Below are positions 1 to 29,692 of a stretch of 39,583 nt of DNA, in pieces. This DNA is from a virus. The position numbers and the translations under genes were made by a program. The notes under the pieces are model-generated. The model did not search any database, had not been told where the DNA came from, and saw only the letters and a program-made list of their open reading frames with translations. The stretch spans positions 1 through 39,583 of the IMG/VR virus record IMGVR_UViG_3300020459_000027. The stretch is one strand, 5' to 3'. How positions within the stretch are numbered: position 1 is the first letter of the stretch; the number at the start of each line of letters is the position of its first letter.

Positions 1-306
1 ATAATAAGTTCCAGGAGAAGATGGAGTCCAAGTAACAGTTCCAGATTCAGCACCATTGTTAGTTACACCAGATGCACCACTACCAGTACCAGTAGTATTT
101 GCTGTCTTAATCCAGAATGGATGTCCACCAACACTTACATTGAAATCAATAGTGTCTCCAGCAACACAATTTATTGTTAGATTGTTTCCACTAATACTTC
201 CACTACCGTCAGTTCCATTAAGTACATAAGCAGAAGCACCACTATTAGTTACTGAAATAGAATAGTTACTTGGTGATCCTCCACCAGTATTAGTAACTGT
301 TACTTT
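1..306 (-). other. Second cupredoxin-like domain (C-terminal, truncated by window edge)
   Basis: Residues about 725-826 resemble the first domain: YVLNGTDGSGSISG against YTISGTDANGSVSG, then LTINCVAGDTIDFNVSVGGHPFW with His786 matching His349. The window ends at GTVTWTPSSPGTYY, just where a Cys-x2-His-x2-Met cluster would be expected. Such domains recur in cyanophage structural proteins as I recall them. Whether this copy keeps all copper ligands cannot be seen here. Confidence 0.65.
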
Positions 307-2478
307 ATAGTCTCTTCTTTCTCCAAGGTTAAATGTATCCTTCTTCATCTGCGCTCTCATCAATGAGTTTGCATCTGGAGCATTAGGAGAATCTTCTACT
401 CTAGGAAATTCAAATTCATAAACATCATTGACTTGTGGACTTAGGTATGCATACTCTGCATTTGTCAACTGGAAAACAATATTACTAGTTCCAGCATTAG
501 TCTTCATTCTATAATGAGTTTCAGTACTCTGATCAGTTAGGAATCTTGTAGTAGCAGCCTTTTCACTGATAGTATTAGCATTCAACCAACCTCCTACTGG
601 AGTTGTTGCTATAGAAGTATCATCATCAAAATCAGCAAATTGATATCTTCTCTCTGCAGCCCATTTAGCACATACTTTACCTTCACCTGTACCTGTTGCT
701 CCATCATGAACCTGTCTGAAAATAGCAGCCATTCCAGCTACGATTGGAGAAGAGAATGATGTTCCATTTATAGTGTCATGATTACCAGCACTATAATTGT
801 CAGCAGTAACAGTATTTGATGCCCAATCATATCTTGGGATCAATAAATTTTGTCCTGGTGCATATGCAGTAACAGCATCACCATAGTTGGTGAAATCTGC
901 AAAGGTTAGTTTATTATTAGTACCTACTTTTAGAGCACCTACAGTAATGATATCAGATACATCAGCAGATCCATATCCAACTTCTTCTCCTCTTCTGGAG
1001 TAACCATCTGTATATGTAATTTCTGCATCAAGTTTTGATGCCTGACCAGAATTTCTAGATCCGTATACAACTTTAGTATTTACAGGACCATAATCAACGT
1101 CAGCATTTTGATCTGGATCAAAGAAATCTAATCCGTTACCAGCAGCTCTACAAACAGTAACACCTTTCAGCATTCCTAATTTATATTCACCATCATCTAT
1201 CTGTTGATCACCACTACCACTTGCTGTAGATGATGATTCCTCAACAGTAATATCGCCATTCATACTGGCGTGTGCTTGACAGAAATACTTGAAACCACCA
1301 GATGCTTTTCCTACAAGAGCAGTTCCAGTATCAAATACAACATTTCCACCACTAGCAGTACCAGCACCAGTCACACCAGCAGCAGCTAATCCTGCATTAT
1401 ATGACGCTCCACCAGTCTGAACATGGAATGGATGACCAGCTGCATTCATTGTGAATGTTAGGGTGTCTCCTTTCTTGACTGTAATTGTTGGGTCTGATCC
1501 CGATACTGATCCATTAGCATCAGTTCCACTAATAGTATAGTTTGAACTACCTGATGCAGTAACTGTGAAGTTATAGTTTTGTCCAACATGTCTTTCATTC
1601 CTATCAACATATGGTTCTTTTGGGTTTGGCCAAGTATTACCAAAACTACAGTTGACTACAGAAGGTCTTGGTCTAGTATTGCCATCTAAAGTATTTCCTT
1701 TGAATCCTGCATGATCTGGATCATTATGATTATAAACCGCATCATATGCACTTCTTATGGTAGACAAAGACATGCTACCACCATCATCACTAATTCTAAG
1801 TGAATAGATTCTTGCTTTGTTTGCTACACCAGCATTGATTCCAGCAGCACATATAGCAGCATTAGTACCATGACCATCTCTACTTACACTACCTGTAGAT
1901 GATGGTTCGTTTGTATTACCAGTATTATTTGGAGTGAATAGAGAACTAGAGAGTTCGTATACCCTATAGTCACCCTGTTCTGAAGTACCGTTTAGGTTTG
2001 CTTTGTTATCTGGACTGAATAGTTCTGGATGCAATCCAACGTTGACTCCTGTTGGTCTACTAGCACCTCTAACACCACTGTCTAAAATATAGATATCTAC
2101 TTCATCACCTTCATTAGTTGCTGAGTATGATCCTACATTACCAGCACTAACACTAGCAGAGTAATCTAATCTAGTAATAGCATCTAAATGCCAATAACTT
2201 GTACTAGAAGATCCTGGAACAGAAGTCGTTCTAGTTCCATATAACTGGAAATTTTCATGGTCTAAAACTGATGCACCATGATCCAACTCATCAATTTTAG
2301 TTTTGAACTCTACTTGATTGTATTGTGACAGATCAGTGTCAAATATAATTGTATCTTGACTAACGAGAATCTTTACCAGCGAAGAACCACCAACCTTTGC
2401 AACAACGTCATCGGCAACTTGTTGTAAGGTTTTTGAATTAGACGCTGCTTTGGTTAGTAGTACTTTATTAGTTGCCAT
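1..2478 (-). CDS. Subtilisin-like (S8) serine protease with inserted cupredoxin-like domain, 3' partial
   Basis: At least 826 codons, open at the left edge. I translated the whole stretch and found one frame without stops. Seen: catalytic Asp133 in YILDSGV, His203 in DGHGTN, oxyanion Asn448 in RAAGNG and Ser574 in NGTSFSSPIVAGMAA, the four S8 signatures. The His-Ser distance is 371 residues against about 157 in subtilisin. Most of the excess is a domain at about 300-412 with cupredoxin features (His349, Cys400, His403, Met406). A second such domain starts near residue 725 and runs off the window. No signal peptide or obvious I9 propeptide is seen; the N-terminal 100 residues are of unknown role. 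The start ATG overlaps the preceding 72-residue gene by 11 nt. Its place at the end of the baseplate operon suggests a virion protein that may cleave host surface or phage proteins; that is inference. The family call is firm, the function is not. Confidence 0.9.
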   Translation of the reverse strand, partial: MATNKVLLTKAASNSKTLQQVADDVVAKVGGSSLVKILVSQDTIIFDTDLSQYNQVEFKTKIDELDHGASVLDHENFQLYGTRTTSVPGSSSTSYWHLDAITRLDYSASVSAGNVGSYSATNEGDEVDIYILDSGVRGASRPTGVNVGLHPELFSPDNKANLNGTSEQGDYRVYELSSSLFTPNNTGNTNEPSSTGSVSRDGHGTNAAICAAGINAGVANKARIYSLRISDDGGSMSLSTIRSAYDAVYNHNDPDHAGFKGNTLDGNTRPRPSVVNCSFGNTWPNPKEPYVDRNERHVGQNYNFTVTASGSSNYTISGTDANGSVSGSDPTITVKKGDTLTFTMNAAGHPFHVQTGGASYNAGLAAAGVTGAGTASGGNVVFDTGTALVGKASGGFKYFCQAHASMNGDITVEESSSTASGSGDQQIDDGEYKLGMLKGVTVCRAAGNGLDFFDPDQNADVDYGPVNTKVVYGSRNSGQASKLDAEITYTDGYSRRGEEVGYGSADVSDIITVGALKVGTNNKLTFADFTNYGDAVTAYAPGQNLLIPRYDWASNTVTADNYSAGNHDTINGTSFSSPIVAGMAAIFRQVHDGATGTGEGKVCAKWAAERRYQFADFDDDTSIATTPVGGWLNANTISEKAATTRFLTDQSTETHYRMKTNAGTSNIVFQLTNAEYAYLSPQVNDVYEFEFPRVEDSPNAPDANSLMRAQMKKDTFNLGERRDYKVTVTNTGGGSPSNYSISVTNSGASAYVLNGTDGSGSISGNNLTINCVAGDTIDFNVSVGGHPFWIKTANTTGTGSGASGVTNNGAESGTVTWTPSSPGTYY
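1243..1581 (-). other. Cupredoxin-like domain nested in the S8 catalytic domain
   Basis: Residues about 300-412 of the protease. It reads as a beta-rich domain: YNFTVTASG, TITVKKGDTLTFTMNAAGHPF, then FKYFCQAHASMNGDITV. The ligands expected for a type 1 copper site are His349 and the C-x2-H-x2-M cluster Cys400/His403/Met406, the amicyanin-like spacing. It sits between SFGN (278-281) and the strand leading to AAGN (438-448). In subtilisin that link is about 30 residues and its first part lines the S1 pocket. Copper binding is inferred from ligand pattern only. Confidence 0.75.
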
Positions 2479-13038: not shown

Positions 13039-13054
13039 GGATCTAAGTAGATCC
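13039..13054 (-). repeat. Inverted repeat at the stop codon of the giant gene
   Basis: GGATCTA and TAGATCC form a perfect 7-bp inverted repeat with a 2-nt centre. On the coding strand the stop codon TAG lies in the 3' arm. No U-tract follows, so it is not a classical terminator; it directly precedes the gp8 late promoter. It could be an RNA end, a processing site or chance. Confidence 0.4.
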
Positions 13055-16000
13055 TAAGCGGATGGGACGTGCTGTTCTAATCAAATCACCAGCACTATAG
13101 TTCTGAGTGAGAGGTTGTGTAAGAATCAACCTCTTATTTACCCAGTCTATTGAATCATAGGCAAGTCTTTCCTTACCTGTTTCTATTTCACCAGAAACCT
13201 GAGAAGCAATGGATACCATGACAGTATTTGCTACATTACTTATATTCGTTCCAGAAAGAAGATTTTGACCAATATTCAATCTTATAACGAATGTGTTGGA
13301 ATCAATAATCCTATCAACATAACCAACTATGACAAATGTTCTTTCTTCATATATTGCCATATCCTCAGTCAACCAGAAAGTATTACCTTCAACTGTCATA
13401 TAGTTGAATCCTTGAACACCTTCCAAATTGATGAATGAATTTCCAATAGAACCAGATGTAGAGAACTTTCCAGCAAATTCTCTTATCATAGTATGACATG
13501 TGGCATCAAATCTTATTTGTTGATGACCTGCTACAGCACTATCTTCATATAAAGATGAATAGAATCTGTCAGAAACATCCTTCAATCTCAATGATCCAAA
13601 TTTATCATCAAGAGAACCAATAGTTAGTGTATTATCTACATTGAACTTATTATCTTCAAGAGATTGGAAAGTAGGAGATAATTTCAAACTACCTATAGAA
13701 ACCTGATTTGGCATACCAGCAGCAGATTCTTTAGGATATGCAGGATCAGTTGAACCATAATAATCATATACTTTTGCTGAATCATCAGCTGAGAGATCAT
13801 CAACTATCTCATCAGTACGGAATATTGTAACTTCTTGACCAGCTTTTGTAAGTGGTGTAGTAGTTATCGTAGTATCAAAACTAACAGTCAGTTGCTTGGC
13901 ATCAAGAACCATAGTAGTTCTCAATGTTGTATCGAAGGATGACCAGAAGTTATACTGGTTCCTTACTAAAGCAAGAGGATATGTTTGAGTAATATGCTTA
14001 TATGACCTAGTAACCAGAACTTCTGGTACTTGGAAATAATTTTCACCTGGGAAGTCAACAACACATCTAGCAATTTGCTTATTCTGATCAATCTCAGCAT
14101 GTGCTCTTGCGAACCCACCATTATCACTTTCTGCAGCCTTGATTACGAGAATAGGTACAGTATCATAATCTAATCCTGTTGGGAATGATCCACTTAGAGA
14201 ATCGATTTCATAAACGTAACCATTCTCTTTGCTGGTCATTGTGACAGCATTTGCACCAGCAAGAGTAGTTGCTATTGTTGCTCCATCAGCAAGAATCCTA
14301 TCAGGATATACTTGAACTTCTACTTTATTGCTACCAAGATCCTGAACTACTGTTGCAACAGACTGTCCACCACTGAACATGACTGTTCCTACAGGATATG
14401 CTGAAGAATCAGATAGAACCATTGTGAATCTAACCCTTGCTGTAAAGGTAGCTTCACGTCCTCTAACTTCACCAGTATAATCTGAGGTCTTGAACTGTGT
14501 CTGTTTTAGACCAGACAAATCAGTCTCAAGTACAAATTTATGAACTCCTGTTGAAGCACTTATTGATATCTGATTAGTACCACCACCAATAGAATCTAAG
14601 TAATTATCAAATAACCTAACTCCTCTAGTTGTGTAAGTATAACCTAGGTAATATGTTGTTCCATTGGTCAATCCAGGAATATCAGAATTCCCATTATTAT
14701 CATATGTGACTTTAGTTCCAGATATAAATCCAGAAGTTGATTGGTTATTATATGTTTCAAACCTAAGTTCTATAGGAGAACCTATAATACCAGTGGCAGC
14801 ATCAAGTGAATATGTATTAGTACCAATCTTTTTCTCCCACTCAATGATATCCCTATTAGAAATATCTACAAGTTCTCTTTCAGCAACTTCACCTTCAATC
14901 TGAATACTATCACCCAACTTGAAGAATTCATAAATTGGATAAGCTTGTAATGGAAGTGTTCTTATTCTCTTATTTGTTGGAATTCCACTCTCAGTAGTAA
15001 AGAGAACAGGAGTACCATTACTATCCCTCTTGATGAAACTTGGTTCATATAGAGGTACATTGAAACCTTTGAGAACTTTCTCAAGGTCTCTACCATACCA
15101 GTATATAATCTGTAAATCAGCTCCTGCTGGAATTGGTTTATAGAATTCAATCAAGGATTCATTTACAACATATGATTGTCCGAATTCTTGAATAACACCA
15201 TTGACAGTAACAATAATCTGTTCAGAGATATTAGGTATTATCAAACTACCGTTCTGCATCATAACAAACGTTGTTGCAGAAGATGTAATATCAATCTCAT
15301 CTAAGATTGCATACTTACCATTAGAATATGCGAAGAATTCTTGGAATGTTCCTTTCTTCTCAATGTATGTTCTCTTAGGAGTTCTAACAACAGATGCAAG
15401 AGATGCTGGATTATCGATAGTATTGATAACGATATCCATTAGAGTACTAATAGAAGATGCAACATCAGCACAAGATGCAGTATAATTTCTTGATGCAGGA
15501 TCTATAGCAATAGTATCATCAAATACTAAAGTCTTATTACTATGTCTTAGTGGATATGCATTAGGAGGAGTTCTTACGATACTCGTCATTGAACTTGGAT
15601 TTGAAACCGCACCAGTAATAATTCCACTTAGAGTTGCTATAGAAGAAACTACATCAGCACAATCATTAGTATCATACCCAAGAACTGAAATTGAATTACT
15701 ATAAGCACTTACAAATGTATGTGTATAATTACCACCTGAAATTACAGCACCAGCAGTAGCAGATTGGAATACATGTGGGTATTGATCAGCAACTGCACCA
15801 ACTCCAACGTTGATTGTAATCTGACCATTATTTCTGGTTAGACCATCTGTAGTAGAAGACTTCCATGTATGATCAGTAGTATTGCTAGACTTCCCTACAT
15901 ACATTTCGATTACATCATCATTAATCTTGGTTACAGATATCCACTTATTACTGTATGGATCAGTTGGTCTTGGATATGCATGATCAGTAGCGTTATTGTC

Positions 16001-19000
16001 AAATCCGCATGTGAAAGTTATAGAACCATCAGCAAACTTGACATTATCACCAGTACTGAATCCGTGTGTAGGAACAGTAACTCTCATAATTCCTGATATT
16101 GGATTATACTCTGCACCAGTTACGGTGTGAAGTGATCCATCCTGAATAATCTCAATGGAATTATCATATGATCTGTCTTTTCTGAAACTAATTGCACTAG
16201 CATTTGCATTTACGAATGTATGCTGATAATCTCCACCAGCAATCACTGCATCAGCAGTTGCATCAATAAAGATGTGATCTGTAGTATTAGTAGATGGAAT
16301 AGTAGATAATGCCTGTATTGTTATAGTAGTATCAGTAACTGCTGTGATAGAAACTGAAGTATTGTAAGCAGGATCACTTATTCTTGGATATGTATGGAAT
16401 GTTTGATGATTATCCTTAGCACAGGTAAACTTCAATGAATCTCCAGCTAACTTAATATTTTGACCTACCTTTAGATTATGTGGTCCTATGCTGAGAACTA
16501 CAAGACCTGTAGTTGGATTATATGTAGTTGCAGGTCCAGGTGTGTATTTTACTAACGGAGACTTGCCAACAGTTATATCAAATGTATCTGCATTACTTCC
16601 TGCATTTTCTACTGTAACCCACTTACCACTAATAGGATCTGTTGATCTTGGATAACTATGATCTGATGAATTACCATCCATCAAACATTTGAATACTATT
16701 GAATCATCAGCAATCTTTATTTGATCACCATCAGAGAATCCATGATTAGGAGAAGTAATACTCAATTTGCCTATATCTGGATAGTAAAGAGCATTAGTAA
16801 TATCCTTATTGATAATATCTGTTCTTGGATAAGAGTGATCGGTCTGATAGTTATCCTTAGCACAAGTAAAGGTTAGTGAATTGTCAGCTAATTTTATAGA
16901 TGTTCCTCTATTCAAAGTATGAGTTCCAATGGTGAGTATCATATCACCTGTAGTATGATTATAAGACGCATTAGAAACATCATGAGTTACCTGTGGAGAA
17001 GTACCCACATTTACAGTAAACGTATCAGCACTATTGACTGTTGCAATAGGTATTACAGCAGAAGCAATTGGATCAGACTTACGAGGATAAGTATGCTCTG
17101 ATGAATTATCATCCATTGAACATGTAAAGTTCATTGAATTAGGGGCAATAGCAATCCTATCACTAGTTGACAATCCATGATTCTTGACTGTTACTACTAA
17201 GTTTCCTGTAGTAGGATCATAGGTAGCATCTGTTGGAGCAAGTTTTGGTAAAGGAGTACGTGCAGTTATACAATCATTCTTAGCAGTACTGAATGTATGT
17301 GTGTAACTACCACCACTAATCAATGCTCCAGTAGTAGCACTTACAAATGTATGATCGTGTAAATCAGTAACTAGAGATGCACTTCCAACATTTATTGTAA
17401 TCTTACCATTCTGTATCTCCAACCCATTAGGTGTTGAACTATCAAATGTATGAATTGATTTATTTGGAGATGCTCCTATTTGGATCTCAAAATTATCTCC
17501 AAGAACTTTACCTACAGGAAGCCATCTTGAACTATAAGGATCCGAAGAACGAGGATATGAATGAGTTGTAGCATAGTTATCCATACCACATCTGAATACT
17601 AATGAATTATTCTGTAGTCGAACTAATTGAGTTGCTTTTTCTATTCCACCAGCAAGTGCATCAACAAATGTATGTGCATAATTTCCACCTGTACTAATAA
17701 CTGCTCTTTCAATACAATTAGTTTCTGCAGATATGAATGTATGTGGAGTAGTATTGGTTGATGGTATAGCATCTAAAACTTGGATATCAAATGTATTATC
17801 AGTTACATTTGAAACAGGTATCCACTGACCACTGATAGGATCTGTTGATCTTGGGTAAGATTTTTGACCACTTCCATGAGTACATGTAAATGTTATTGAG
17901 TCATCATCAAGTCTTATATGATCACCATTACCAAACTTATGACCATTCACAGTTAGTGTCATAACACCTGTTGTTGGGTTATACACTACATCAGTTGGTG
18001 TATATTCATTTGCTGCGTTTACATATGTGTGTGTATAGTTACCACCAGAAATTACAGCACCAGCAGTAGCAGATACAAATGTATGAGTATCACTATTACT
18101 GATAGCACCTTGTCCACCATTTACGTTTATAGTAATTTTGGTAGAAGTTGTTCCAATAATTTCAAGTGCAGTATTATATGCATAGTCAGCACCATTACTG
18201 GTATTTGCACCTGTTGCACGAGGATATGCCTTTTCAGCAGCAGCACCTGAAGCACCATTGAATGCACAACTGAATGTTATAGACTCTGTTGCTAATCTAA
18301 TACTCTCACCAACTTGTAGAGTATGAGATCCAATCTCCAATTGCATATTACCTGAAGTTGTATCATAAGTAGCATCTGTTACATTATGATTTACAGTAGG
18401 AGTTGTGCCAACATTGACTGTTATTGAATTGGATGTTGTTCCAGTAATTTTTACTGCTGTATTATAATAAGGATCTGTTGATCTTGGATAAGTGTGATAG
18501 GTACTGTTCTGATCCATATCACAAGTGAATCTTAATGAATCTTTTGCAATTCTAATTGAAGATCCTACATCTAAGTTATGACCACCAACAACAAGAGTCA
18601 TTTCTCCAGTTACAGGATTGTATGTAGAATCTGATACAGAGTATCCACTAATATTAGATGTTCCAACATTTACAGTAAATGTAGAAGTATCTACAGCACT
18701 AACAGGCAACCATTTATTTGCTGCTGGATCAGTCTCCCTAGGGTATGAATGCTGAGTAGATCCTGCATCCATAGTACATGTAAAGAACATTGAATTAGGA
18801 GCAATCCTAATCATGTCAGAAACTGCAAAGTTGTGGCTAGTCATTGTAACCTTCAACTCACCTGTTAGTGGGTTATAAGTTGCACTATCAGCAGTGTGAC
18901 GTGTTGGAGCAGTGAATGGATGATTAGGAATATTCAGAACTGCTGTTCCTGTTTCTGGATTATAATCTGCACCAGCTATAGTGTATGGTGATATACCAAC

Positions 19001-22000
19001 ACTCTTGATTGGAATAGACTTATTATAAACTGGATCTGTTGTACGTGGGTAAGTATGATTAGTTACATTGAAATCTTTTAGGCAAGTAAATGTTAGTGAA
19101 TTAGCAGCTAACTTTATACCTGAACCTTCAATGAAGTTATGATTACCAATAGTAATTTCCATATCACCAGTGTTCTGATTATAATCAGCAGCAGTGATAT
19201 CATAATTTTCTAAAGGAGATGATCCAACATTTACACTAATAGTGTTTGTAGTTGTATTGAGAATTTCTAATGCTTTACTATTAGCAGGATCTGAAGATCT
19301 AGGATAGGTATGCTTAGTATCATTAGAATCCATAGTACAAGTAAATTCTAAAGAATCCGTATCTATCTCAATACTATTAGCTGCTGTCAACCCATGATTA
19401 GGTATGGTTAGAACCATTTCACCTGATGTTGGGTTATAAGTTGCACCTGTTGGTGTGAATGATGAAATTGTAGAGTCAGTAATAGTAGCATTAGTATGCT
19501 GAGTATATCCATGAGATCCTTGTATATTCACAAGAATATTACGACAAACTTCAGAAGCAATATCTTTTGCAGCATTGAATGTATAAACAATCTCTGTTTC
19601 TCTACCAGTCACATAATTGGAGATACCTTTAGCATAGAAGCTTGCAGCATCCCAAGTCCTACTGTTTCCACCATAGGTCATGTTGAAGATTATAGAATCT
19701 AAAGCATCTTTCACATCATCTATACAATCAGCAGATGTAAATCCAGTAGGATAAGTGTAACTAGGATACTGAGCAGTCATTCTAGAAACTGCTTCATAAG
19801 CAATGAGATCCTTATTCATTTCTAGAAGATTTGCTCCATCAATCATCTTGTTAGTTGAAGCATTATCATAAGTTGAATAACCAGTACTTGTGCCAAGTTT
19901 ATTATAATCATCCAACTTGTTCTGCATAGCAAGAACACAAAGATCCTTTGCCCATCTAAATGCTAATTTAGAAGGTTCTTCTTCACCTACAAGATGTTGT
20001 AATGCTCCTCCATTGACATAGAGATTTGCTGCATCATGAACCTGATCATTTCCACCAAATCTAATATTATCAACAATTGCAGAAATAACATCTCTAACAT
20101 CATCAATACAATCCTGATTAGTAAAGTTACCTGATCCTGAATTTATCTGGAAGGTTCCTTTATATGCAGGATAATCTAACATTGATAAAACAGCTTCTTC
20201 TGCAATCAATGATTTATTTGCTTCAAGAAGGTTTGCTGCATCAAGGAATCTATCTCCTGCAGTTACCGTTCCTTTTAGTTTGATAGGAGTATTGATTGCT
20301 CCTCTACCAAATGTCTTTCCGTTGACTAATACAGCAGGGTTAGATGCATTGACAAAAAGATGAGTTGTTGTATTTGAAGATATTCCTACATTTACAGTAA
20401 TGGTTTGAGAACCTACTGCAAGTATAGGTAAATTCTGACGGTGAGCTGGATCTCCTCCTCGTGGATACCTATGCTCTGTTGCATGATTATCATAGAAACA
20501 AGTAAAGTTTATAGACTTGTATCTAATATTGAGTTCATCATTTGTAGTAATAGGAGTATTGACTAATATACCATCTGCATTCTCAACTAAATGATTTACA
20601 TCACTAACTGTGAGAACAAGTTCTCCATCATTAGGATTATAAGTTGCTGCACTTACATTGAGATTACCTAACTGGATTACGTCTCCATTTGAATCTTTTC
20701 CTGTTCTTGGTTCTACATCACCAGAAACTGCAGGAGCAGTAACGTTTTCTCCATCAATAAAATCTTTAGTTAGTACTTCAACTTTTAGTACACCCTTTCC
20801 TTCATATCCAAGAGGTGTTCTACCAACAACTTTTCCTGTTGCACCACTGGTTGCACCAACAATAATTTCATTGTCTCTAAAGTTTAGAACTCCAGCAACT
20901 TCACTCATATTGATAACTTTACCAACTCTCTTAGGAGCAGTGCTGAATGTTATTGTATTGGCATTATTATCAATAGTATAAGACTTATCAGTTCCAGGTA
21001 TTTGAATAATACCATCCATGAATACCAAAGCATTTTCAGCTGGTTCTAATGGATCTTGTGGAGCATAACTTGGTTGTTGAGCAGTAGTTTGTAATGCAAA
21101 GGTTGTCTTATATCCATCGAATTGAGGAGATATATCTACAAATTTCTTAGCAAAGTTCTTATTATTGACTACATCAGAAAATCCAAATTTTCTACCTACA
21201 AACTTCTGAGTCTGAGTATGTCCTGTATCTGGATCAATGAATTCAGTAGGAGGTGCAGCAAATATAATCTTAGAAGATAATTCACCTTTAGTAAGTTGGT
21301 TTTCTGGATAGAACGTATGATATAGTTGAGGACCTACTACAAATGGATATGCTGCATTTAGTTCTGCAGTATTAGTTGCAGGAGTAGTGTAATTATATGT
21401 ACTATTCTTGATAGTTGTAAAATAACAATATCTACCTAATGGAAACTCAGGAGTTACACAGAATCTTCCATTATAAACATCAAGATCTGCACCTGTTGTG
21501 CTGTAAGAATAATCTTCTACAAAATAACCAATATTGTATATTGTAGGAACGATACTAATCTGACACCAAGCAGTAGCACTCTTTATCCACATATTTTGAC
21601 TTAGTGTTCCATTTACAGATGCAAGTAAAAGTGTTCCTGTAAGAGGATTGAAGGATTGAACAATTCCATTTATACCTGAAACAATACTATCATCAGTAGC
21701 ACTGTTTACTTGAGTTACTACAGCACCAGGAATGAATATATCAGTAGCACCACTAAACGGAACAAATCCTACTACATTGAATTCAACAGAATCTACTGGA
21801 GGTCCAATTTGATCTCCTGTAAGAATAGTTCCATCAATAAGAGTATTTCTAGTAGAAAGAGGTCTTGTAGAGTATCCACTTTGTATTTTCTTTATTGCAG
21901 ATGTAGCAGAGTGAGCATCTGTATAACCATAAGGTCCATAAATCGGAGTACCATCAAATGCCCATCCAAGGATAGGTGAGTGTGATGGAGATGAAGCATC

Positions 22001-25000
22001 TTCTGCATAATCACCAGTTGATGTCATATTATCATTCAACTGTCTCCTCAATCCAATTGGGTTACATGCCTGATAATATTGACCTCTAGTATTTGCTTTA
22101 CCACCAAATGCATCAGTTGGTGGTTTAGAACCAACTTCAGTTATAGTCCATGTACCTTTATTGTTATAGGTTGTTTCTAATGTACTGTTTTGTAAAAGAG
22201 TTCCATTTGCAAACATTCCAATAACTCCCAATGGAGTATTTTGCTTATCTACAGGAGCAAATACTTCTGTTGGTACTCTCTTGATATAGTCTTGGAAAGA
22301 GGGGTTTAGTCCACTGTAAGGACCTATAGTTGATGTATATGATGGAACACCCCTAGAAGTTATATAAATGAATTCTTCGTCTTTATAGACTTGTGTAATG
22401 TCTGCTGTACCGCCTACAACAGTAGCACCATTATCAATATCTGTTGTACCAGATGTGATCTTCCATGAATCATACTCTAGTGAACCAGCACCAGTAGTTG
22501 TAATCTCTAATGATTGGATCTTTCTATCATTGATAATAGTATATGCTTTTCCAGGTTCTTGCCCAACACCATCGATAGTGACAAGTAATGAATTATCATT
22601 ATATGGACTGATCAGAGATCCTTCTTCTCTAATATCATATATTCTCTTGATGCCATCAATATTAGCAGTAATATCATCAACATATGATAAATCAATAGCA
22701 ACTGTTCCTTCAGCAGATATAAGAGAACCCATTCCAGGTCTCTCAACCATTCTAAAGAACTTATTGATCTGAACAGTCTTGAGTGAATCTGTCAATTCCA
22801 TTGGAATTGTAGGATCAATATCAATAAACTCCTTGAATACTTCTATAGTAATCTGTTTGTTTGGATTCTGTGCATCACAAGTAAAGTTTGGAAGATATGA
22901 ATTAGGTGATGTTGATTGCAATGATAAATCAAATCTTTCTCTATTATGTTCAGCATCCGCAAATGTATCATTTGGATGATAATCAGAAATCTTTATGTAT
23001 GCATTACCTAAACCATCATTTTCTGCATAGGTAACATAATAGATCTTCTGATCAACCATCTTACCTTCAACAATATCACCAGCAGCAGTTATTCCTTTCC
23101 ACTTCAATTCATAATCAAAACTATCTTGATAATACTTGAATGAATCTCCAACTTTTATATTTGAACCATTTCTTAGGAAAATGTTTGTTGCCCATGTTAT
23201 ACTTGATAGGAAATCAGATTGAATATCTGCACTAGTATCAAATGTAAACTTATGACGATCTGAAGGACAAGTTGTTGCACCACCTATAGGAACTGTACTT
23301 ACACTTGCTGAAGAATCAAGAATAACTTCACCAAATACTAAGAATCCTGCAGGGTGAGTAGAATCCTTGATAATTTCTCTCCAATCAGTTACAGGTATCT
23401 GAGAACGAATAACATAAGAGAAATCCTGATAGAAATAGGAATCCTGAATCTTCTGAGATGACGTACTTAGTTTACCTAAGTCATCTGAGAAGAATCCACT
23501 AATAGTTGTGATAGCATCAATAGTAGATTGGATAGAAGCAGAATTGACTGTCTTTGGTTTAGATTCAGTTCCAGAAAGATATCCTTTCAATACCTGTCCT
23601 GTCAAAAATTCTCCAACAACACTTCTTACTCTAAGAGTCTGATTTATTTCATTATAATCAACAACTATACCAGTAACTAATGGATTGTTGACATCACCCT
23701 GATAAACTCTTTCTCCAAACTCATATTTCTTAGGATCTTCAAGATCTACTAATTGCATTGAGACTGGAATAGTAGTCTCAGGAACCATTGTATAGTTATT
23801 AGAGAAGCGAGCACCAGGACTTGTTATATCAAGTCCAATAACCTTACCAATAGTAGAAGATGATGGAAGAACTCTTATGTTCCTTTCATCTTCTTCAACA
23901 AGAAGTAATTCAGTTCCTGATGTATATCCTTGACCTCCGCTTGTTACCCTAATACTACGAACTGATCCACCTTGAGTATCTGCAACCAATTCAGCACCAG
24001 TTCCATTTCCTATAACATATATTGTTGGACTTATATATCTACTACCACCAAATTCCCTTGTATCAGGAGTACTTACACTAACTCCAGTAATCTCCCCAGT
24101 ATTCTCATCTATAGTAAGTGAATAACGCAATTCATCATCTTTTCTGAGAGATATACCTTTTATAACAGGAAGAGATTCATATCCAAAACCTTGATTTATA
24201 ATATTAATATTAGCAATTTCACCAAATACATTTGGAGTAACAACTCCCATTTTTTTTGTACCTCTTGCCTGTCCTTCTACTCTTCTCTTGACAATATACT
24301 TGAAAGTAGTAGATGTAACATCAAAGATAGGAGTTCCACCAGTATTATATGGATCCTCAACAAAATTGATCTTTGGATTACTATCTGTTATAGAACTATT
24401 TGAATTATCATAGAATAGATTTGAAATAGAAGTATCAGTTATTATCAGTGTAACTGTAGCATTAGCATTACCTGGAGTACCAACTCTACTAACAGCATAC
24501 TCATCAGTATACAAATCATCATTATAGAATGATAATATAGTTGTTTGATTGGTTAGTTCTGATACATCAAATACGTACTTGTGTCCATATACAAAAGATA
24601 AATTTGGATTAGATTCAAAACTATTATTAGTATGAATACTAGAGAATAAGAATCTGTTGTTAGTACCATCAAACTTTACTACAACTGGTGTAGTAATTGA
24701 TTGATTAGTTGCTGGATCTCCAAATATCTCAACTAAATCATCTTCGCTCAAACCATGAGCAATATCTGTCTGAAGAATTGCTTCAAGTTCACTTTGGTTT
24801 GTTATATCAGTATTATGTGCATGTTCCTGACCTGTAGTACCAAGCAATCCTCTGGTCACTTGGAAAATATTACCAGCCTTTCCATCCAAACGAAGCATTT
24901 CAGTTCCAATCTTGACTATGTTTCCTAGATTGAAGAAATCAAACTTAGTAGGTCCAAATGCTATATTTCTCTGATCAGTGGTTATTGGATTTATAACTTG

Positions 25001-28000
25001 ATCTTGTACGAATATATTATTGTCATCCTGATCCTTGAATGAACTTGATGTAGTAAATCTTTGAGCATTATAAAGATCTACTGTTGCATAATACTTATCA
25101 GATCCTGCAGTGAAAGTTGCTTGTGCATTTGCAATCTCAACTGTTGCACCATTCAAGTGACTACCACTAGTAGGATATGAACTACCTAATTGTTTTCTAG
25201 CAACTGTCCATGTTTTATTCTCTATATCCCTAGAGACAATTCTCATTTTCTCAGATCCAATAGAGATGTATCTATCAAGAGGGAAAGCAGATGCATTTCC
25301 TACACGTATAATAGTATCAGTATTGGATATTGTTCTAGTAAGTTGTGTACTAGTAGATGTTGCTGGATCATAACTTGTAACAACTCCACCAGCTACTGTA
25401 TTAGTTGCACCAATTCCAATTTCATTGACAGTCTCTGAACTGAATGTTCCAGCACTATATGCACCAAATCTAGGAAGATCTGAAGCATTAGGTCCTGATT
25501 TTATATCTTTTACAAAGAGATAACCATTACTATTGTCAATTTTCTCTATTTTTGAAACTCTTCCTTCACATTGAGACGTTGCTCCTTTTATATAAGTACC
25601 AACATTCCAAGCATCCATACTAGATGCTCCAGTAATAGATATCCTTACAGTGTAATCACTTATAACACCTTCAGGTGTTTGACTTACTACTGCTGTACCA
25701 GCTAAGTGAGGAACTTTTTTAGAAGCATCCCATCCACGAAGTACTGGTACAGTTTTAGCAAATTCAAAGTCTCCAGCACGACCCTCTCCAAAATAGTTCT
25801 TATTGTTCGCTCCACCCCATAAATTAGTCTCTGTAGTTGGTGATGAGATTGAACTAGCATATCTACTACCAGATCCATCAGCATTGAAAATTGCAGCTGA
25901 AGCAGCGACACCTGCCCCTCCAACGTCAGCAACACTTATATTATGCTCATATCCACCAGCACCACTATATAATGACTGATTGAATGTAGATGAAACTGTA
26001 AATGTATAATAATTGCTAGTAACAGGGTTGATATACATTTCAAGTTGCATTGTATTTGCAACTCTATCAAGTGCTATAATCTTACCAATCTTGTAAGATA
26101 CATTATTTGCATCTACGTATATCTCATCAAATCCATATGCTCCATTGATATACTCATAATAAAATCCTTTTTGGGATCCTGCTGTTATTGGTAAATCATT
26201 AGATAATTGCTCTGTAGAAGAAACCTTAAGATAAACGTACTTTGTGTTATTGGTTGGGACACCATTAACATATACTATCTCATCTTCAATCTCCAATGTC
26301 ATTCCAGTGCTAAGATTCTCAAGATTATTAGCACGAAGATAAATTTCGTCTAAAAGTCCTGTATTAATAGCAGTTTCAAATTCCTGTTCAATAACAGTAT
26401 TATCTGAGATCTCGTCACCTTCAGAAATTCTATTATAATACAATACATTTGTACTAGTATCTACTGATGGAGAAGGAACTGTTAGTTTCTGTTGTCTAGA
26501 ATCAATCTTTCCAACAATATCAGAAGCAACAATAGATGATGTGTTTACAACAGCTCCACTTGGACTCTTAGGAAGAATAGATGAAACTGCTGCTGTAAAT
26601 CCAGTACCTTGTGTATTTGAATTGTCAACATAGAACTCATCTCCAGCACCCCATCTAGGAGTGAAGGATTCATTACTTGCTACATCTACGTAGTTTTTAC
26701 CACCATTTTCAATAATAACAGAATCAATAGATCCTGATGAAACGTTAGATACTGTTGCACCAACTAAAGAACCAAATTGAGGTAAATTATTATTTTCATC
26801 TCTTACTCTGATAACATCAGTAGGTAAATTTTTCAATATAGAAGTTGCATCCCAGTTAGATGATTCTGGAGCATATTTGAAGGTAGGTCCTACAACATAA
26901 GGGAATCTTGGTTTTATATCATATCTGTCTATTTGATTTTCATCCGCACTTGAATGAACAGTAGTAAAATAACAATATCTACCTAATGGAAACTCAGGAG
27001 TTATGCAAATTCTTCCATTGAACTCATCTAAGTCTTTATGTAAAGCATCTCCATCTGGCTTGTACTCATAATCTTCTATGAACGTTCCCATAGAATATGC
27101 AGTAACACCAATAGCATTACGTGCATCTTTTACAAAATAAGATGATTCTAAACGTTTTAGAGGAGATGATGTGTCAAGAGGGTTTGTATATCCAACAGGA
27201 CCATAAATTGGAACACCATCATATGCCCATCCAATAATAGGTGAGTGTTGTAAATTTCCTGCTGTCTCATTACCAGCAACAATATTATCACCAAGTATAT
27301 TTCTAATACCTACAGGATTACCAACATAATTGTATGCATCATGATACTCTGGTATTAGACCAGGAAAAGGATATCCATTATGCTTATCTGAATATCTCTG
27401 ATATTCTTTGATATTATCTCTATGCCACTCAGTCACATTTGCAGATACATTTGCTCCACTTGCAGTAGGAACAATATAAATCTTTGTTTTTGCTTTATCA
27501 TAATCATATCCACCAGAAACCTTTCTTATAGAGGATATAGCACCACTTGTAGGGTCAATTGTACTGACAACGAATCTTGCCCCTCTACCCCTTCCAGATT
27601 CGTCTACAATGACTATTTCTGGTACTTGGGTATAATCCTGACCTGAACCTAATATATTAAGAGTTTCTATCTCTCCAGTAATATTATTGCTTGGAAACTG
27701 TGGGCTCATATGAGCACCAGAACCAGCACTAATAGTTACTTCAGGAGTTGACTGATATGCACCAAAAGCAGTTAGAGTAATACCTATTACCTTTCCACCA
27801 GAAATTTGTGCTGTAGCAAAAGCACCTGTACCAACACTATCATCAACAACAACTTTTGGTGGTGCAGTGTATCCAGATCCACCATCTACTACAGTAATAG
27901 AACTAAGTTCACCAGCACTTGTCAACTGTCCACCTTGTCCAGAAATATTAGGACCATCAAGTTCCGTATTTACACCTCTGAAGGATATAATAGGAACTCC

Positions 28001-29692
28001 ATCAATTGTTACACCTATAGTTCCGTTATCTGGTTGTGTTGTCTTTGTTTTTCCTAAAGATGGAACTTTTGGTATCTTTTTCAGATGTCTTTGTGATGCA
28101 GGAGATAATCCAGCATGAGGACCAGCTTTTATTTCACCAATACTAAGAACATCAGGAAATCCATTAGAAGAAACGAATACATGATCATTATTCTCAAATA
28201 CTTGGTTTACACCTCTTGAAACGTTATATTCGTTAGAAAGATAGGTAGCAACCATATTTCCAGAAGTGGAAACGGTTCTTATGTTATCTTCTGTTGAAGG
28301 AACGTTCTGTCTCCATGAAGAATTGATAGGTGCATCCTGTTTTTTACCAGATAGACCAAATTCTACAACATCTCCTTCTTTTACAAATAATCCTTTACCA
28401 GTTATAGGAGTTTCAGATATCAAACCAGCAGGTCTGAATGAAGCAGAATAATAATCTATTAAAGGATTTGCTTGCGAATCTGAAACAACATAAAGAATAT
28501 TAGATCCAAATACTGATCGATTCTTAGACGCAGCTGTAAAAGTTACAGCGTTAGTAGATACATCATAAAATTCTGTACCTGTCTTTTCTGCATATGAAAA
28601 AGATATTGGTATATTATTTGCATCATTTATCCCTTCTACATAAAATTCACCATTTATATCTGGAAACCCTATAGTTGAGTCAACAACTAAGGTCTTATTA
28701 AGAGTACCAAAGGTAGTATTACTTCTAGTCTCATTAGCAGGTTGGAAATGTCCAATAACAGATTCTGCATTCAAGAAGATTCTATAAAGAGTATCATTTC
28801 CTGATTTGATTGGAATTACTTTTTCAATACTTGCTGTTGCTTCTCCAATTGTCTGATCATAACCATAAGTAATTTGTTTTAGAACTAATCCTGGAAGATC
28901 ATCTACTGTAACACCATCGGCAAATTTGATTAGAGTTCCTTGTAATACTGTATCAACAGACCATGTAGATACAGAAGATTTTAGAAGTTGCTCGTTTGGA
29001 TAACGAACTAAGATCTTCTCATCGTTGAATGCACTTCTGAATAAGAATTCAATAGCAGGACTTGTACCCTTAGATGCATAGAAATCCTTGATATACTTCA
29101 GAATTGTTGGTACTGAAATATCTTCGTTCAGTCTTTCAATAGGAATTCCAGAGAAATACTGAGTTTTTAAATTTTTGAATAAAGTTGCAAGGAAAAGATG
29201 ACTAATATTAGTAACAGTTGTGTTACTTGCACTAAAAGCAGTTCCATTAGTACTAATGAATGTACTATCGTTTAGTAAATCACCTAGTTTTGTTGTACCT
29301 GAAGAACCTCTACGTATATCATATAATACACCAGTAGAAGGATCAATATTCTTATATTGTATAATTTCTTGATTTGTACCATCATTTAGTAGTACAAGAC
29401 CCTCTGAAGGGAACCTTTTCCAAATTGCTCTTTGCTTATTATCAGTTTTTTGTGATAATCCTATAGTTGTGTCATCCGCAGTTATATCAAAAGCTAAAGT
29501 AGTCTCAAGGATAATACCATCCTTGTAGAAATCAGCATTTTGATACTTCTGAATCTGTCGAAGAAGACCAGTAGACGCACCATCAATCTCAGTGGCTTTA
29601 TAGTATTCTTCAAAAAACTTTACGAAAGTAGGATATTCCTGCCTGAAAAAGTCAGATAGTTGACTATCTACTAACTGGGATACTTTGATCAT
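13043..29692 (-). CDS. Giant tail/baseplate structural protein, 5,549 aa, with YHYH domains and repeat array (gp7 position)
   Basis: A single uninterrupted frame of 16.65 kb. Architecture seen: an N-terminal unit (about 1-240; LSDFFRQEYPTFVKFFEEYY) probably for baseplate attachment; GSGYTAPP-type repeats near 600-750; a first YHYH domain (about 758-935); a long beta-rich middle; a second YHYH domain (about 2,535-2,790); two helical DAANLLE...DCIDDV repeats (about 3,140-3,400); around 13 copies of a repeat with F-x-C...H-x-YPR (about 3,060-4,580); and a C-terminal unit (about 4,780-5,549) with VTVNGVIQEFG-type fibre sequence. It lies between gp6 and gp8 where T4 has gp7 (1,032 aa), but I see no convincing gp7 similarity beyond position. 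The start follows the gp6 stop by 3 nt, with GGAG 9 nt upstream of the ATG. Structural role strongly inferred; likely long fibre or baseplate appendage. Confidence 0.85.
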   Translation of the reverse strand: MIKVSQLVDSQLSDFFRQEYPTFVKFFEEYYKATEIDGASTGLLRQIQKYQNADFYKDGIILETTLAFDITADDTTIGLSQKTDNKQRAIWKRFPSEGLVLLNDGTNQEIIQYKNIDPSTGVLYDIRRGSSGTTKLGDLLNDSTFISTNGTAFSASNTTVTNISHLFLATLFKNLKTQYFSGIPIERLNEDISVPTILKYIKDFYASKGTSPAIEFLFRSAFNDEKILVRYPNEQLLKSSVSTWSVDTVLQGTLIKFADGVTVDDLPGLVLKQITYGYDQTIGEATASIEKVIPIKSGNDTLYRIFLNAESVIGHFQPANETRSNTTFGTLNKTLVVDSTIGFPDINGEFYVEGINDANNIPISFSYAEKTGTEFYDVSTNAVTFTAASKNRSVFGSNILYVVSDSQANPLIDYYSASFRPAGLISETPITGKGLFVKEGDVVEFGLSGKKQDAPINSSWRQNVPSTEDNIRTVSTSGNMVATYLSNEYNVSRGVNQVFENNDHVFVSSNGFPDVLSIGEIKAGPHAGLSPASQRHLKKIPKVPSLGKTKTTQPDNGTIGVTIDGVPIISFRGVNTELDGPNISGQGGQLTSAGELSSITVVDGGSGYTAPPKVVVDDSVGTGAFATAQISGGKVIGITLTAFGAYQSTPEVTISAGSGAHMSPQFPSNNITGEIETLNILGSGQDYTQVPEIVIVDESGRGRGARFVVSTIDPTSGAISSIRKVSGGYDYDKAKTKIYIVPTASGANVSANVTEWHRDNIKEYQRYSDKHNGYPFPGLIPEYHDAYNYVGNPVGIRNILGDNIVAGNETAGNLQHSPIIGWAYDGVPIYGPVGYTNPLDTSSPLKRLESSYFVKDARNAIGVTAYSMGTFIEDYEYKPDGDALHKDLDEFNGRICITPEFPLGRYCYFTTVHSSADENQIDRYDIKPRFPYVVGPTFKYAPESSNWDATSILKNLPTDVIRVRDENNNLPQFGSLVGATVSNVSSGSIDSVIIENGGKNYVDVASNESFTPRWGAGDEFYVDNSNTQGTGFTAAVSSILPKSPSGAVVNTSSIVASDIVGKIDSRQQKLTVPSPSVDTSTNVLYYNRISEGDEISDNTVIEQEFETAINTGLLDEIYLRANNLENLSTGMTLEIEDEIVYVNGVPTNNTKYVYLKVSSTEQLSNDLPITAGSQKGFYYEYINGAYGFDEIYVDANNVSYKIGKIIALDRVANTMQLEMYINPVTSNYYTFTVSSTFNQSLYSGAGGYEHNISVADVGGAGVAASAAIFNADGSGSRYASSISSPTTETNLWGGANNKNYFGEGRAGDFEFAKTVPVLRGWDASKKVPHLAGTAVVSQTPEGVISDYTVRISITGASSMDAWNVGTYIKGATSQCEGRVSKIEKIDNSNGYLFVKDIKSGPNASDLPRFGAYSAGTFSSETVNEIGIGATNTVAGGVVTSYDPATSTSTQLTRTISNTDTIIRVGNASAFPLDRYISIGSEKMRIVSRDIENKTWTVARKQLGSSYPTSGSHLNGATVEIANAQATFTAGSDKYYATVDLYNAQRFTTSSSFKDQDDNNIFVQDQVINPITTDQRNIAFGPTKFDFFNLGNIVKIGTEMLRLDGKAGNIFQVTRGLLGTTGQEHAHNTDITNQSELEAILQTDIAHGLSEDDLVEIFGDPATNQSITTPVVVKFDGTNNRFLFSSIHTNNSFESNPNLSFVYGHKYVFDVSELTNQTTILSFYNDDLYTDEYAVSRVGTPGNANATVTLIITDTSISNLFYDNSNSSITDSNPKINFVEDPYNTGGTPIFDVTSTTFKYIVKRRVEGQARGTKKMGVVTPNVFGEIANINIINQGFGYESLPVIKGISLRKDDELRYSLTIDENTGEITGVSVSTPDTREFGGSRYISPTIYVIGNGTGAELVADTQGGSVRSIRVTSGGQGYTSGTELLLVEEDERNIRVLPSSSTIGKVIGLDITSPGARFSNNYTMVPETTIPVSMQLVDLEDPKKYEFGERVYQGDVNNPLVTGIVVDYNEINQTLRVRSVVGEFLTGQVLKGYLSGTESKPKTVNSASIQSTIDAITTISGFFSDDLGKLSTSSQKIQDSYFYQDFSYVIRSQIPVTDWREIIKDSTHPAGFLVFGEVILDSSASVSTVPIGGATTCPSDRHKFTFDTSADIQSDFLSSITWATNIFLRNGSNIKVGDSFKYYQDSFDYELKWKGITAAGDIVEGKMVDQKIYYVTYAENDGLGNAYIKISDYHPNDTFADAEHNRERFDLSLQSTSPNSYLPNFTCDAQNPNKQITIEVFKEFIDIDPTIPMELTDSLKTVQINKFFRMVERPGMGSLISAEGTVAIDLSYVDDITANIDGIKRIYDIREEGSLISPYNDNSLLVTIDGVGQEPGKAYTIINDRKIQSLEITTTGAGSLEYDSWKITSGTTDIDNGATVVGGTADITQVYKDEEFIYITSRGVPSYTSTIGPYSGLNPSFQDYIKRVPTEVFAPVDKQNTPLGVIGMFANGTLLQNSTLETTYNNKGTWTITEVGSKPPTDAFGGKANTRGQYYQACNPIGLRRQLNDNMTSTGDYAEDASSPSHSPILGWAFDGTPIYGPYGYTDAHSATSAIKKIQSGYSTRPLSTRNTLIDGTILTGDQIGPPVDSVEFNVVGFVPFSGATDIFIPGAVVTQVNSATDDSIVSGINGIVQSFNPLTGTLLLASVNGTLSQNMWIKSATAWCQISIVPTIYNIGYFVEDYSYSTTGADLDVYNGRFCVTPEFPLGRYCYFTTIKNSTYNYTTPATNTAELNAAYPFVVGPQLYHTFYPENQLTKGELSSKIIFAAPPTEFIDPDTGHTQTQKFVGRKFGFSDVVNNKNFAKKFVDISPQFDGYKTTFALQTTAQQPSYAPQDPLEPAENALVFMDGIIQIPGTDKSYTIDNNANTITFSTAPKRVGKVINMSEVAGVLNFRDNEIIVGATSGATGKVVGRTPLGYEGKGVLKVEVLTKDFIDGENVTAPAVSGDVEPRTGKDSNGDVIQLGNLNVSAATYNPNDGELVLTVSDVNHLVENADGILVNTPITTNDELNIRYKSINFTCFYDNHATEHRYPRGGDPAHRQNLPILAVGSQTITVNVGISSNTTTHLFVNASNPAVLVNGKTFGRGAINTPIKLKGTVTAGDRFLDAANLLEANKSLIAEEAVLSMLDYPAYKGTFQINSGSGNFTNQDCIDDVRDVISAIVDNIRFGGNDQVHDAANLYVNGGALQHLVGEEEPSKLAFRWAKDLCVLAMQNKLDDYNKLGTSTGYSTYDNASTNKMIDGANLLEMNKDLIAYEAVSRMTAQYPSYTYPTGFTSADCIDDVKDALDSIIFNMTYGGNSRTWDAASFYAKGISNYVTGRETEIVYTFNAAKDIASEVCRNILVNIQGSHGYTQHTNATITDSTISSFTPTGATYNPTSGEMVLTIPNHGLTAANSIEIDTDSLEFTCTMDSNDTKHTYPRSSDPANSKALEILNTTTNTISVNVGSSPLENYDITAADYNQNTGDMEITIGNHNFIEGSGIKLAANSLTFTCLKDFNVTNHTYPRTTDPVYNKSIPIKSVGISPYTIAGADYNPETGTAVLNIPNHPFTAPTRHTADSATYNPLTGELKVTMTSHNFAVSDMIRIAPNSMFFTCTMDAGSTQHSYPRETDPAANKWLPVSAVDTSTFTVNVGTSNISGYSVSDSTYNPVTGEMTLVVGGHNLDVGSSIRIAKDSLRFTCDMDQNSTYHTYPRSTDPYYNTAVKITGTTSNSITVNVGTTPTVNHNVTDATYDTTSGNMQLEIGSHTLQVGESIRLATESITFSCAFNGASGAAAEKAYPRATGANTSNGADYAYNTALEIIGTTSTKITINVNGGQGAISNSDTHTFVSATAGAVISGGNYTHTYVNAANEYTPTDVVYNPTTGVMTLTVNGHKFGNGDHIRLDDDSITFTCTHGSGQKSYPRSTDPISGQWIPVSNVTDNTFDIQVLDAIPSTNTTPHTFISAETNCIERAVISTGGNYAHTFVDALAGGIEKATQLVRLQNNSLVFRCGMDNYATTHSYPRSSDPYSSRWLPVGKVLGDNFEIQIGASPNKSIHTFDSSTPNGLEIQNGKITINVGSASLVTDLHDHTFVSATTGALISGGSYTHTFSTAKNDCITARTPLPKLAPTDATYDPTTGNLVVTVKNHGLSTSDRIAIAPNSMNFTCSMDDNSSEHTYPRKSDPIASAVIPIATVNSADTFTVNVGTSPQVTHDVSNASYNHTTGDMILTIGTHTLNRGTSIKLADNSLTFTCAKDNYQTDHSYPRTDIINKDITNALYYPDIGKLSITSPNHGFSDGDQIKIADDSIVFKCLMDGNSSDHSYPRSTDPISGKWVTVENAGSNADTFDITVGKSPLVKYTPGPATTYNPTTGLVVLSIGPHNLKVGQNIKLAGDSLKFTCAKDNHQTFHTYPRISDPAYNTSVSITAVTDTTITIQALSTIPSTNTTDHIFIDATADAVIAGGDYQHTFVNANASAISFRKDRSYDNSIEIIQDGSLHTVTGAEYNPISGIMRVTVPTHGFSTGDNVKFADGSITFTCGFDNNATDHAYPRPTDPYSNKWISVTKINDDVIEMYVGKSSNTTDHTWKSSTTDGLTRNNGQITINVGVGAVADQYPHVFQSATAGAVISGGNYTHTFVSAYSNSISVLGYDTNDCADVVSSIATLSGIITGAVSNPSSMTSIVRTPPNAYPLRHSNKTLVFDDTIAIDPASRNYTASCADVASSISTLMDIVINTIDNPASLASVVRTPKRTYIEKKGTFQEFFAYSNGKYAILDEIDITSSATTFVMMQNGSLIIPNISEQIIVTVNGVIQEFGQSYVVNESLIEFYKPIPAGADLQIIYWYGRDLEKVLKGFNVPLYEPSFIKRDSNGTPVLFTTESGIPTNKRIRTLPLQAYPIYEFFKLGDSIQIEGEVAERELVDISNRDIIEWEKKIGTNTYSLDAATGIIGSPIELRFETYNNQSTSGFISGTKVTYDNNGNSDIPGLTNGTTYYLGYTYTTRGVRLFDNYLDSIGGGTNQISISASTGVHKFVLETDLSGLKQTQFKTSDYTGEVRGREATFTARVRFTMVLSDSSAYPVGTVMFSGGQSVATVVQDLGSNKVEVQVYPDRILADGATIATTLAGANAVTMTSKENGYVYEIDSLSGSFPTGLDYDTVPILVIKAAESDNGGFARAHAEIDQNKQIARCVVDFPGENYFQVPEVLVTRSYKHITQTYPLALVRNQYNFWSSFDTTLRTTMVLDAKQLTVSFDTTITTTPLTKAGQEVTIFRTDEIVDDLSADDSAKVYDYYGSTDPAYPKESAAGMPNQVSIGSLKLSPTFQSLEDNKFNVDNTLTIGSLDDKFGSLRLKDVSDRFYSSLYEDSAVAGHQQIRFDATCHTMIREFAGKFSTSGSIGNSFINLEGVQGFNYMTVEGNTFWLTEDMAIYEERTFVIVGYVDRIIDSNTFVIRLNIGQNLLSGTNISNVANTVMVSIASQVSGEIETGKERLAYDSIDWVNKRLILTQPLTQNYSAGDLIRTARPIRLGST
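15958..20515 (-). repeat. Array of about 13 Cys/His repeats (F-x-C ... H-x-YPR) inside the giant protein
   Basis: Consensus by eye: a YNPTTG-type hairpin, a segment like H-x-L-x2-G-x2-I-x-LA, then FTC-x-MD-x-N-x-T-x-H-x-YPR-x-TDP, then a strand ending ITVNVG. The FxC...YPR blocks lie near 15,970, 16,390, 16,650, 16,830, 17,090, 17,550, 17,850, 18,220, 18,490, 18,740, 19,040, 19,300 and 20,460. Most are 255-300 nt apart (85-100 residues); longer gaps hold an extra SATAGAVISGGNYTHTF-type unit or, in one case, the helical repeats. The Cys and Tyr-Pro-Arg are kept in all copies; the His is kept in most but not in the copies near 17,850 and 18,220. Confidence 0.85.
19500..20270 (-). repeat. Two helical repeats interrupting the Cys/His array
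   Basis: Two copies of about 125 residues with the pattern DAANLLEANKSLIAEEAV / GANLLEMNKDLIAYEAV, then DCIDDVRDVISAIVDNIRFGGN / DCIDDVKDALDSIIFNMTYGGN, then DAANLYVNGG / DAASFYAKG. They are predicted alpha-helical, unlike the beta-rich surroundings. They lie between the first array copy (near 20,460) and the rest. Shorter relatives of the DC-x2-V unit occur near 15,650 and 15,470 (DCADVVSSIATLSGI, SCADVASSISTLMDI). Confidence 0.75.
21318..22095 (-). other. YHYH domain 2 of the giant protein, with an insertion
   Basis: Contains HSPILGWAFDGTPIYGPYGY and, further on, YNGRFCVTPEFPLGRYCYFT, the two hallmark blocks of the YHYH family (PF14240, function unknown). Between them this copy carries about 95 extra residues (from about GDQIGPPVDSVEF to TAWCQISIVPTIYN) that copy 1 lacks. 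Confidence 0.8.
26888..27421 (-). other. YHYH domain 1 of the giant protein
   Basis: Contains HSPIIGWAYDGVPIYGPVGY and FNGRICITPEFPLGRYCYFT, preceded by NPVGIRNILGDN, which also matches NPIGLRRQLNDN of copy 2. Both copies end with a Y-P-F/Y-VVGP motif. Family knowledge: YHYH domains occur in secreted bacterial and marine phage proteins without known activity. Confidence 0.8.

Follow-up and report, generated by a model that had tools for sequence, protein, structure and literature searches.

The S8 peptidase that the cyanophages P-HM1 and P-HM2 have in common was reported by Sullivan et al. in 2010 (PMC3037559), in a paper in which the word copper does not occur. Both proteins (PHM1_104 and PHM2_106; T4-GC 519) have an S8 core orthologous to that of the protein studied here and a C-terminal copper module. 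They lack its nested domain and have a clean, empty insertion site, with a divergent copy of the module N-terminal to the protease instead. The "peptidase S8" of Synechococcus phage S-BM3 (WDS61281.1; T4-GC_519) is 46% identical to our protein and shares its gene position, the nested cupredoxin with all ligands, and a YHYH domain, but its record annotates a peptidase only and leaves the copper domain unrecognised. Outside phages, the subtilases proteinase K and aqualysin (S8) share the catalytic triad, the oxyanion Asn, and the fold with the phage protease and, unlike it, have no domain inserted in the S1 loop. Plastocyanin, amicyanin, and rusticyanin (PF00127) share the fold, the profile matches, and the ligand order H...C-x2-H-x2-M with the nested domain, and amicyanin also has the same C-x2-H-x2-M loop spacing. 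These proteins are free electron carriers, whereas the phage domain is a module within a larger phage protein.

Both parts of the protein belong to known families, and their combination is without a description in the open papers that we searched. Searches of open papers for phage tails with a cupredoxin, copper-binding, or plastocyanin-like domain returned nothing relevant. The original prediction that no subtilase with this architecture had been described therefore stands for the open papers searched but not for GenBank, where phage S-BM3 has it unrecognised. The reading better supported by the data below is that the tail carries a mobile type 1 copper module and that, in a single clade, one copy of it has lodged in the protease.

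The window analysed here is a 39.6-kb IMG/VR virus record (39,583 nucleotides) that holds the baseplate region of a T4-like phage, with gp6-, gp8-, and gp25-like wedge genes, a PAAR protein, and a giant structural open reading frame (ORF). By gp6 comparison, the nearest isolate is Synechococcus phage S-BM3 (78% identity); the next is at 42%. The relevant features are the following.

1..2478, minus strand: large tail/baseplate-region protein, first 826 residues; runs off the contig end (2,810 residues in contig L097)
2254..2478, minus strand: propeptide-like N-terminal region, residues ~1-75, proposed from modelled secondary structure
1591..2205, minus strand: subtilase S8 catalytic domain, first part, residues 92-296, with D133, H203, and the S1 segment SFG (278-280)
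1240..1581, minus strand: nested cupredoxin-like domain, residues 300-413, with ligands H349, C400, H403, and M406
679..1221, minus strand: subtilase S8 catalytic domain, second part, residues 420-600, with oxyanion N448 and nucleophile S574
1..264, minus strand: second cupredoxin-like domain, from residues 739-826 on, with H786; cut by the contig end
2468..2686, minus strand: small virion structural protein gene (phrog_473), directly upstream; gene order as in phage S-BM3
2687..11290, minus strand: baseplate-region protein of 2,867 amino acids (DUF4815; phrog_358), syntenic with the S-BM3 "virulence associated protein"
13043-29692, minus strand: giant structural ORF of 5,549 residues with YHYH domain matches

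An overlapping viral contig (L003/L097) encodes the same 826 residues, identical, and continues to a stop codon, giving a protein of 2,810 residues (gene at 868-9300 in L097). The order in this protein is the S8 protease with its nested copper-type domain, a second such domain, a third and longer C-x2-H-x2-M region, a YHYH domain (PF14240; 106.7 bits; residues 1772-1987), and Ig/Hoc-like repeats. The second domain, which was absent from the earlier account of this sequence, is completed beyond the window by C829-x2-H832-x2-M835 and, with H786, has all four ligands; the third site (C983) lies further on. The YHYH domain and three copper-type sites are therefore found in one polypeptide.

The protease domain matches Pfam Peptidase_S8 (PF00082) at 68.1 bits (cut-off, 21.8), with the match split around the insert, and Foldseek matches its fold to proteinase K-like enzymes. 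The catalytic Asp, His, and Ser and the oxyanion Asn, proposed earlier to be kept, were found at D133, H203, S574, and N448 of the ORF at 1..2478. The enzyme is likely active, since these residues are invariant across 44 aligned relatives. Residues ~1-75 are modelled in the order beta-alpha-beta-beta-alpha, as in subtilase I9 propeptides, and no Pfam I9 match was obtained at an E value of ≤1.

The residues proposed as copper ligands, H349 and C400-x2-H403-x2-M406, were likewise located exactly where predicted, within residues 300-412 (1243..1581). Residues 328-413 match Copper-bind (PF00127) at 22.9 bits, so that both of the profile families in question score above their cut-offs. Across copies, 29 of 51 match PF00127, and the domain scores range from 22.9 to 26.6 bits against a cut-off of 21.2. 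The AlphaFold model of the domain (51 relatives) has a pLDDT of 95.7 and a pTM of 0.89, and residues ~300-413 are predicted as the Greek-key beta sandwich expected of a cupredoxin. Among the PDB structure matches listed for this model, nearly all are copper proteins or domains with a cupredoxin fold (rusticyanin, TM 0.57; plastocyanin, TMt 0.61). When the profile of the 51 relatives was compared with PDB sequences, the matches listed were type 1 copper proteins, namely plastocyanin (1b3i at 1e-6), amicyanin, rusticyanin, and nitrite reductase, together with one cytochrome oxidase subunit II fragment. The whole-protein model is of modest confidence (mean pLDDT, 61); in the whole-protease model, the insert reaches a pLDDT of ~80, and the linkers (residues 281-296 and 416-423) fall below 50. 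The fold and the ligand set are almost certainly those of a type 1 cupredoxin, and copper binding by the nested domain is predicted with good confidence.

Other accounts of the motif were rejected. A chance occurrence is ruled out by the PF00127 score, by ligand conservation, and by the expectation from shuffling (0.013 occurrences of C-x2-H-x2-M, against one found in 11,302 residues of protein encoded in the window). A CuA site is ruled out by the single Cys in the motif, which is unlike the CuA pattern. The domain is also not a stand-alone plastocyanin gene of the petE type known as a cyanophage auxiliary metabolic gene, as it is internal to an 826-residue (in full, 2,810-residue) protein.

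We then compared the loop between the S1 segment SFG and the AAGN strand among related phage S8 ORFs. It spans 43 to 45 amino acids in the large majority, 73 to 80 in a few relatives, and 157 to 167 in the nested clade. This difference indicates that one domain of ~115 residues is cleanly inserted into the protease. It comes close to the "about 125 extra residues" of the original prediction and, together with the model, supports the proposed placement after the segment lining the S1 pocket. A tree built without the insert places the nested proteases in one clade (SH-aLRT support, 100%). The nested copies of the module cluster with those of the C-terminal and tail-fibre kinds and separately from the N-terminal type, so the insert is probably a tail-fibre-type module that was placed in the protease once. 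An assembly chimera is ruled out by the presence of the same architecture in nine distinct sequences, including a cultured phage. A cellular origin was rejected after a scan of GTDB genomes revealed no relatives of the nested protease.

The four ligands H, C, H, and M are the only fully invariant columns among 72 distinct copies drawn from several contexts, whose mean pairwise identity is 39%. Since the first profile had been built with the ligands present, we repeated the search with the ligand columns masked. All four ligands were kept in 9 of 9 nested copies, in all 40 C-terminal copies, and in 6 of 6 copies from proteins without an S8 domain; among copies N-terminal to the protease, 49 keep the full set and 7 do not. 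A bias from ligand-containing profiles is ruled out, as the conservation stands with masked profiles. Five of the seven ligand-lacking copies belong to one lineage (L025, L030, L034, L053, and L057), in which the Cys, the second His, and the Met are replaced together while the protease triad and the C-terminal copies are retained. Strict retention of the ligands, with joint loss of several where they are lost, is as a metal site would predict, and the persistence of some N-terminal copies after ligand loss suggests that the fold can serve without metal.

The module recurs in several positions. A divergent copy separates a propeptide-like region from the protease in the sister clade, so that most S8 domains of this gene family have one copy nearby, in front or inside. 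Elsewhere, the module is C-terminal or N-terminal to the protease or occurs in tail proteins without a protease. The same domain is found in tail proteins of P-SSM2 and P-SSM5, in S-CAM4, S-H9-1, and ACG-2014 phages, and in baseplate-tail fibre connectors. Tail proteins of P-SSM2 (PSSM2_298), P-SSM5, and S-CAM1 and baseplate wedge-tail fibre connectors have this domain in a chain that lacks the protease; the P-SSM2 copies have the ligand set of the nested domain, and the S-CAM1 copy is truncated. The complete copies examined in protease-free tail proteins all have the same ligands, which argues that the job of the module is independent of the protease. The same domain was also found at 47% identity in Actinomycetia phage DSL-LC01 (OQ999401.1, 104019-104348), whose annotated host is not a cyanobacterium, and this copy suggests that the module has spread beyond cyanophages.

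We propose, with somewhat better than even confidence, that the protein belongs to the virion of a T4-like marine virus of the cyanophage type and has an N-terminal S8 protease and a long tail of host-contact-type modules. Its presence in the phage particle and a function in host contact are both inferred from its gene neighbours and module company, with baseplate genes upstream and YHYH and Ig/Hoc-like modules downstream. A link to host recognition has been drawn for YHYH domains encoded in this structural operon in marine T4-like phages (PMC7029224). The type 1 copper module, recurrent in cyanophage tail proteins, was inserted, probably once, in the ancestor of this small clade, into a surface loop leading from the S1-pocket segment to the following helix of the protease, with the second and third copper-type sites after the protease. 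The sites would hold copper, probably acquired outside the cyanobacterial cytoplasm. The modules may function on the surface of the tail, most likely in contact with the host surface, where they would bind an envelope partner or carry out local redox chemistry on it. The protease would trim a host surface protein or a phage tail protein. The nested copy would work on its own account, with the protease tolerating a guest in a surface loop that is not a gate.

The alternative that survives best, although we consider it unlikely, is that the domain is a structural or adhesive sandwich. It would serve as a spacer or a lectin-like module, with ligands kept for stability (e.g., as a structural Cu(I)/Zn site) and no redox role. 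The Ig-like and YHYH modules in the same protein and the persistence of degenerate N-terminal copies are consistent with this reading, as is a match to the N-terminal-type cupredoxin profile, without the Cys-His-Met ligands, at 24395-24673 in the giant baseplate ORF. However, the four ligand positions alone are invariant in the 72 copies, and a spacer would need no exact type 1 set with amicyanin-like C-x2-H-x2-M spacing. The giant ORF also has a recurring motif, FTC-x2-DNH-x-T-x-H-x-YPR, at residues ~3065 and ~4424 (copies FTCFYDNHATEHRYPR and FTCAKDNHQTFHTYPR), and this Cys/His motif could be another metal site.

The original prediction also held that copper loading or redox state could gate substrate access. 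In this reading, which we regard as improbable, the nested domain lies over the S1 pocket, and the protease is opened or closed according to how that domain is loaded with copper or oxidised; it might, for example, stay silent until the virion meets the host envelope. The insertion does follow the S1 segment directly, and the ligands are present in all nine nested copies although the proteins are as little as 45 to 50% identical. No catalytic residue varies in the alignment of 44 proteins. With the sister-clade copy placed at the junction of the propeptide-like region and the protease, both layouts put a copy near the activation machinery. Yet identical ligand sets occur in copies that are distant from a protease, the triad and all other catalytic residues are retained in sister proteases that lack the insert, and several N-terminal copies without ligands stand beside a protease with an intact triad. 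Because the linkers are of low confidence in the model, the gating geometry is not predicted. Gating is unsupported, with indirect evidence that is mixed to negative; it is possible but not favoured. A gated virion protease, in which a blue-copper domain senses host envelope chemistry and switches the adjacent active site, is correspondingly doubtful, and we give as little credence to the idea that sister phages perform the same task through the copy at the propeptide junction.

A type 1 copper site is largely buried in its fold. Such a site would therefore make a poor receptor bait, and we consider it very improbable that tail copper acts as a "Trojan horse" decoy that targets an outer-membrane receptor through which the host takes up copper or metal, despite the several copper-type sites per chain, their wide reuse in tail proteins, and a parallel in the iron-in-tail-fibre hypothesis (for marine phages, tail-fibre HxH motifs that bind iron have been discussed; PMC11705849).

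A copper module of the tail surface, housed but not used as a gate by the protease, is thus the reading that we prefer. In cyanophage tail proteins, a type 1 copper module that is strictly conserved occupies several positions, one of them within a protease. If copper is bound at these sites, abundant marine phages would have copper proteins on their virus particles, and this would bear on how phages recognise or modify cyanobacterial surfaces and on virus-borne trace metal.
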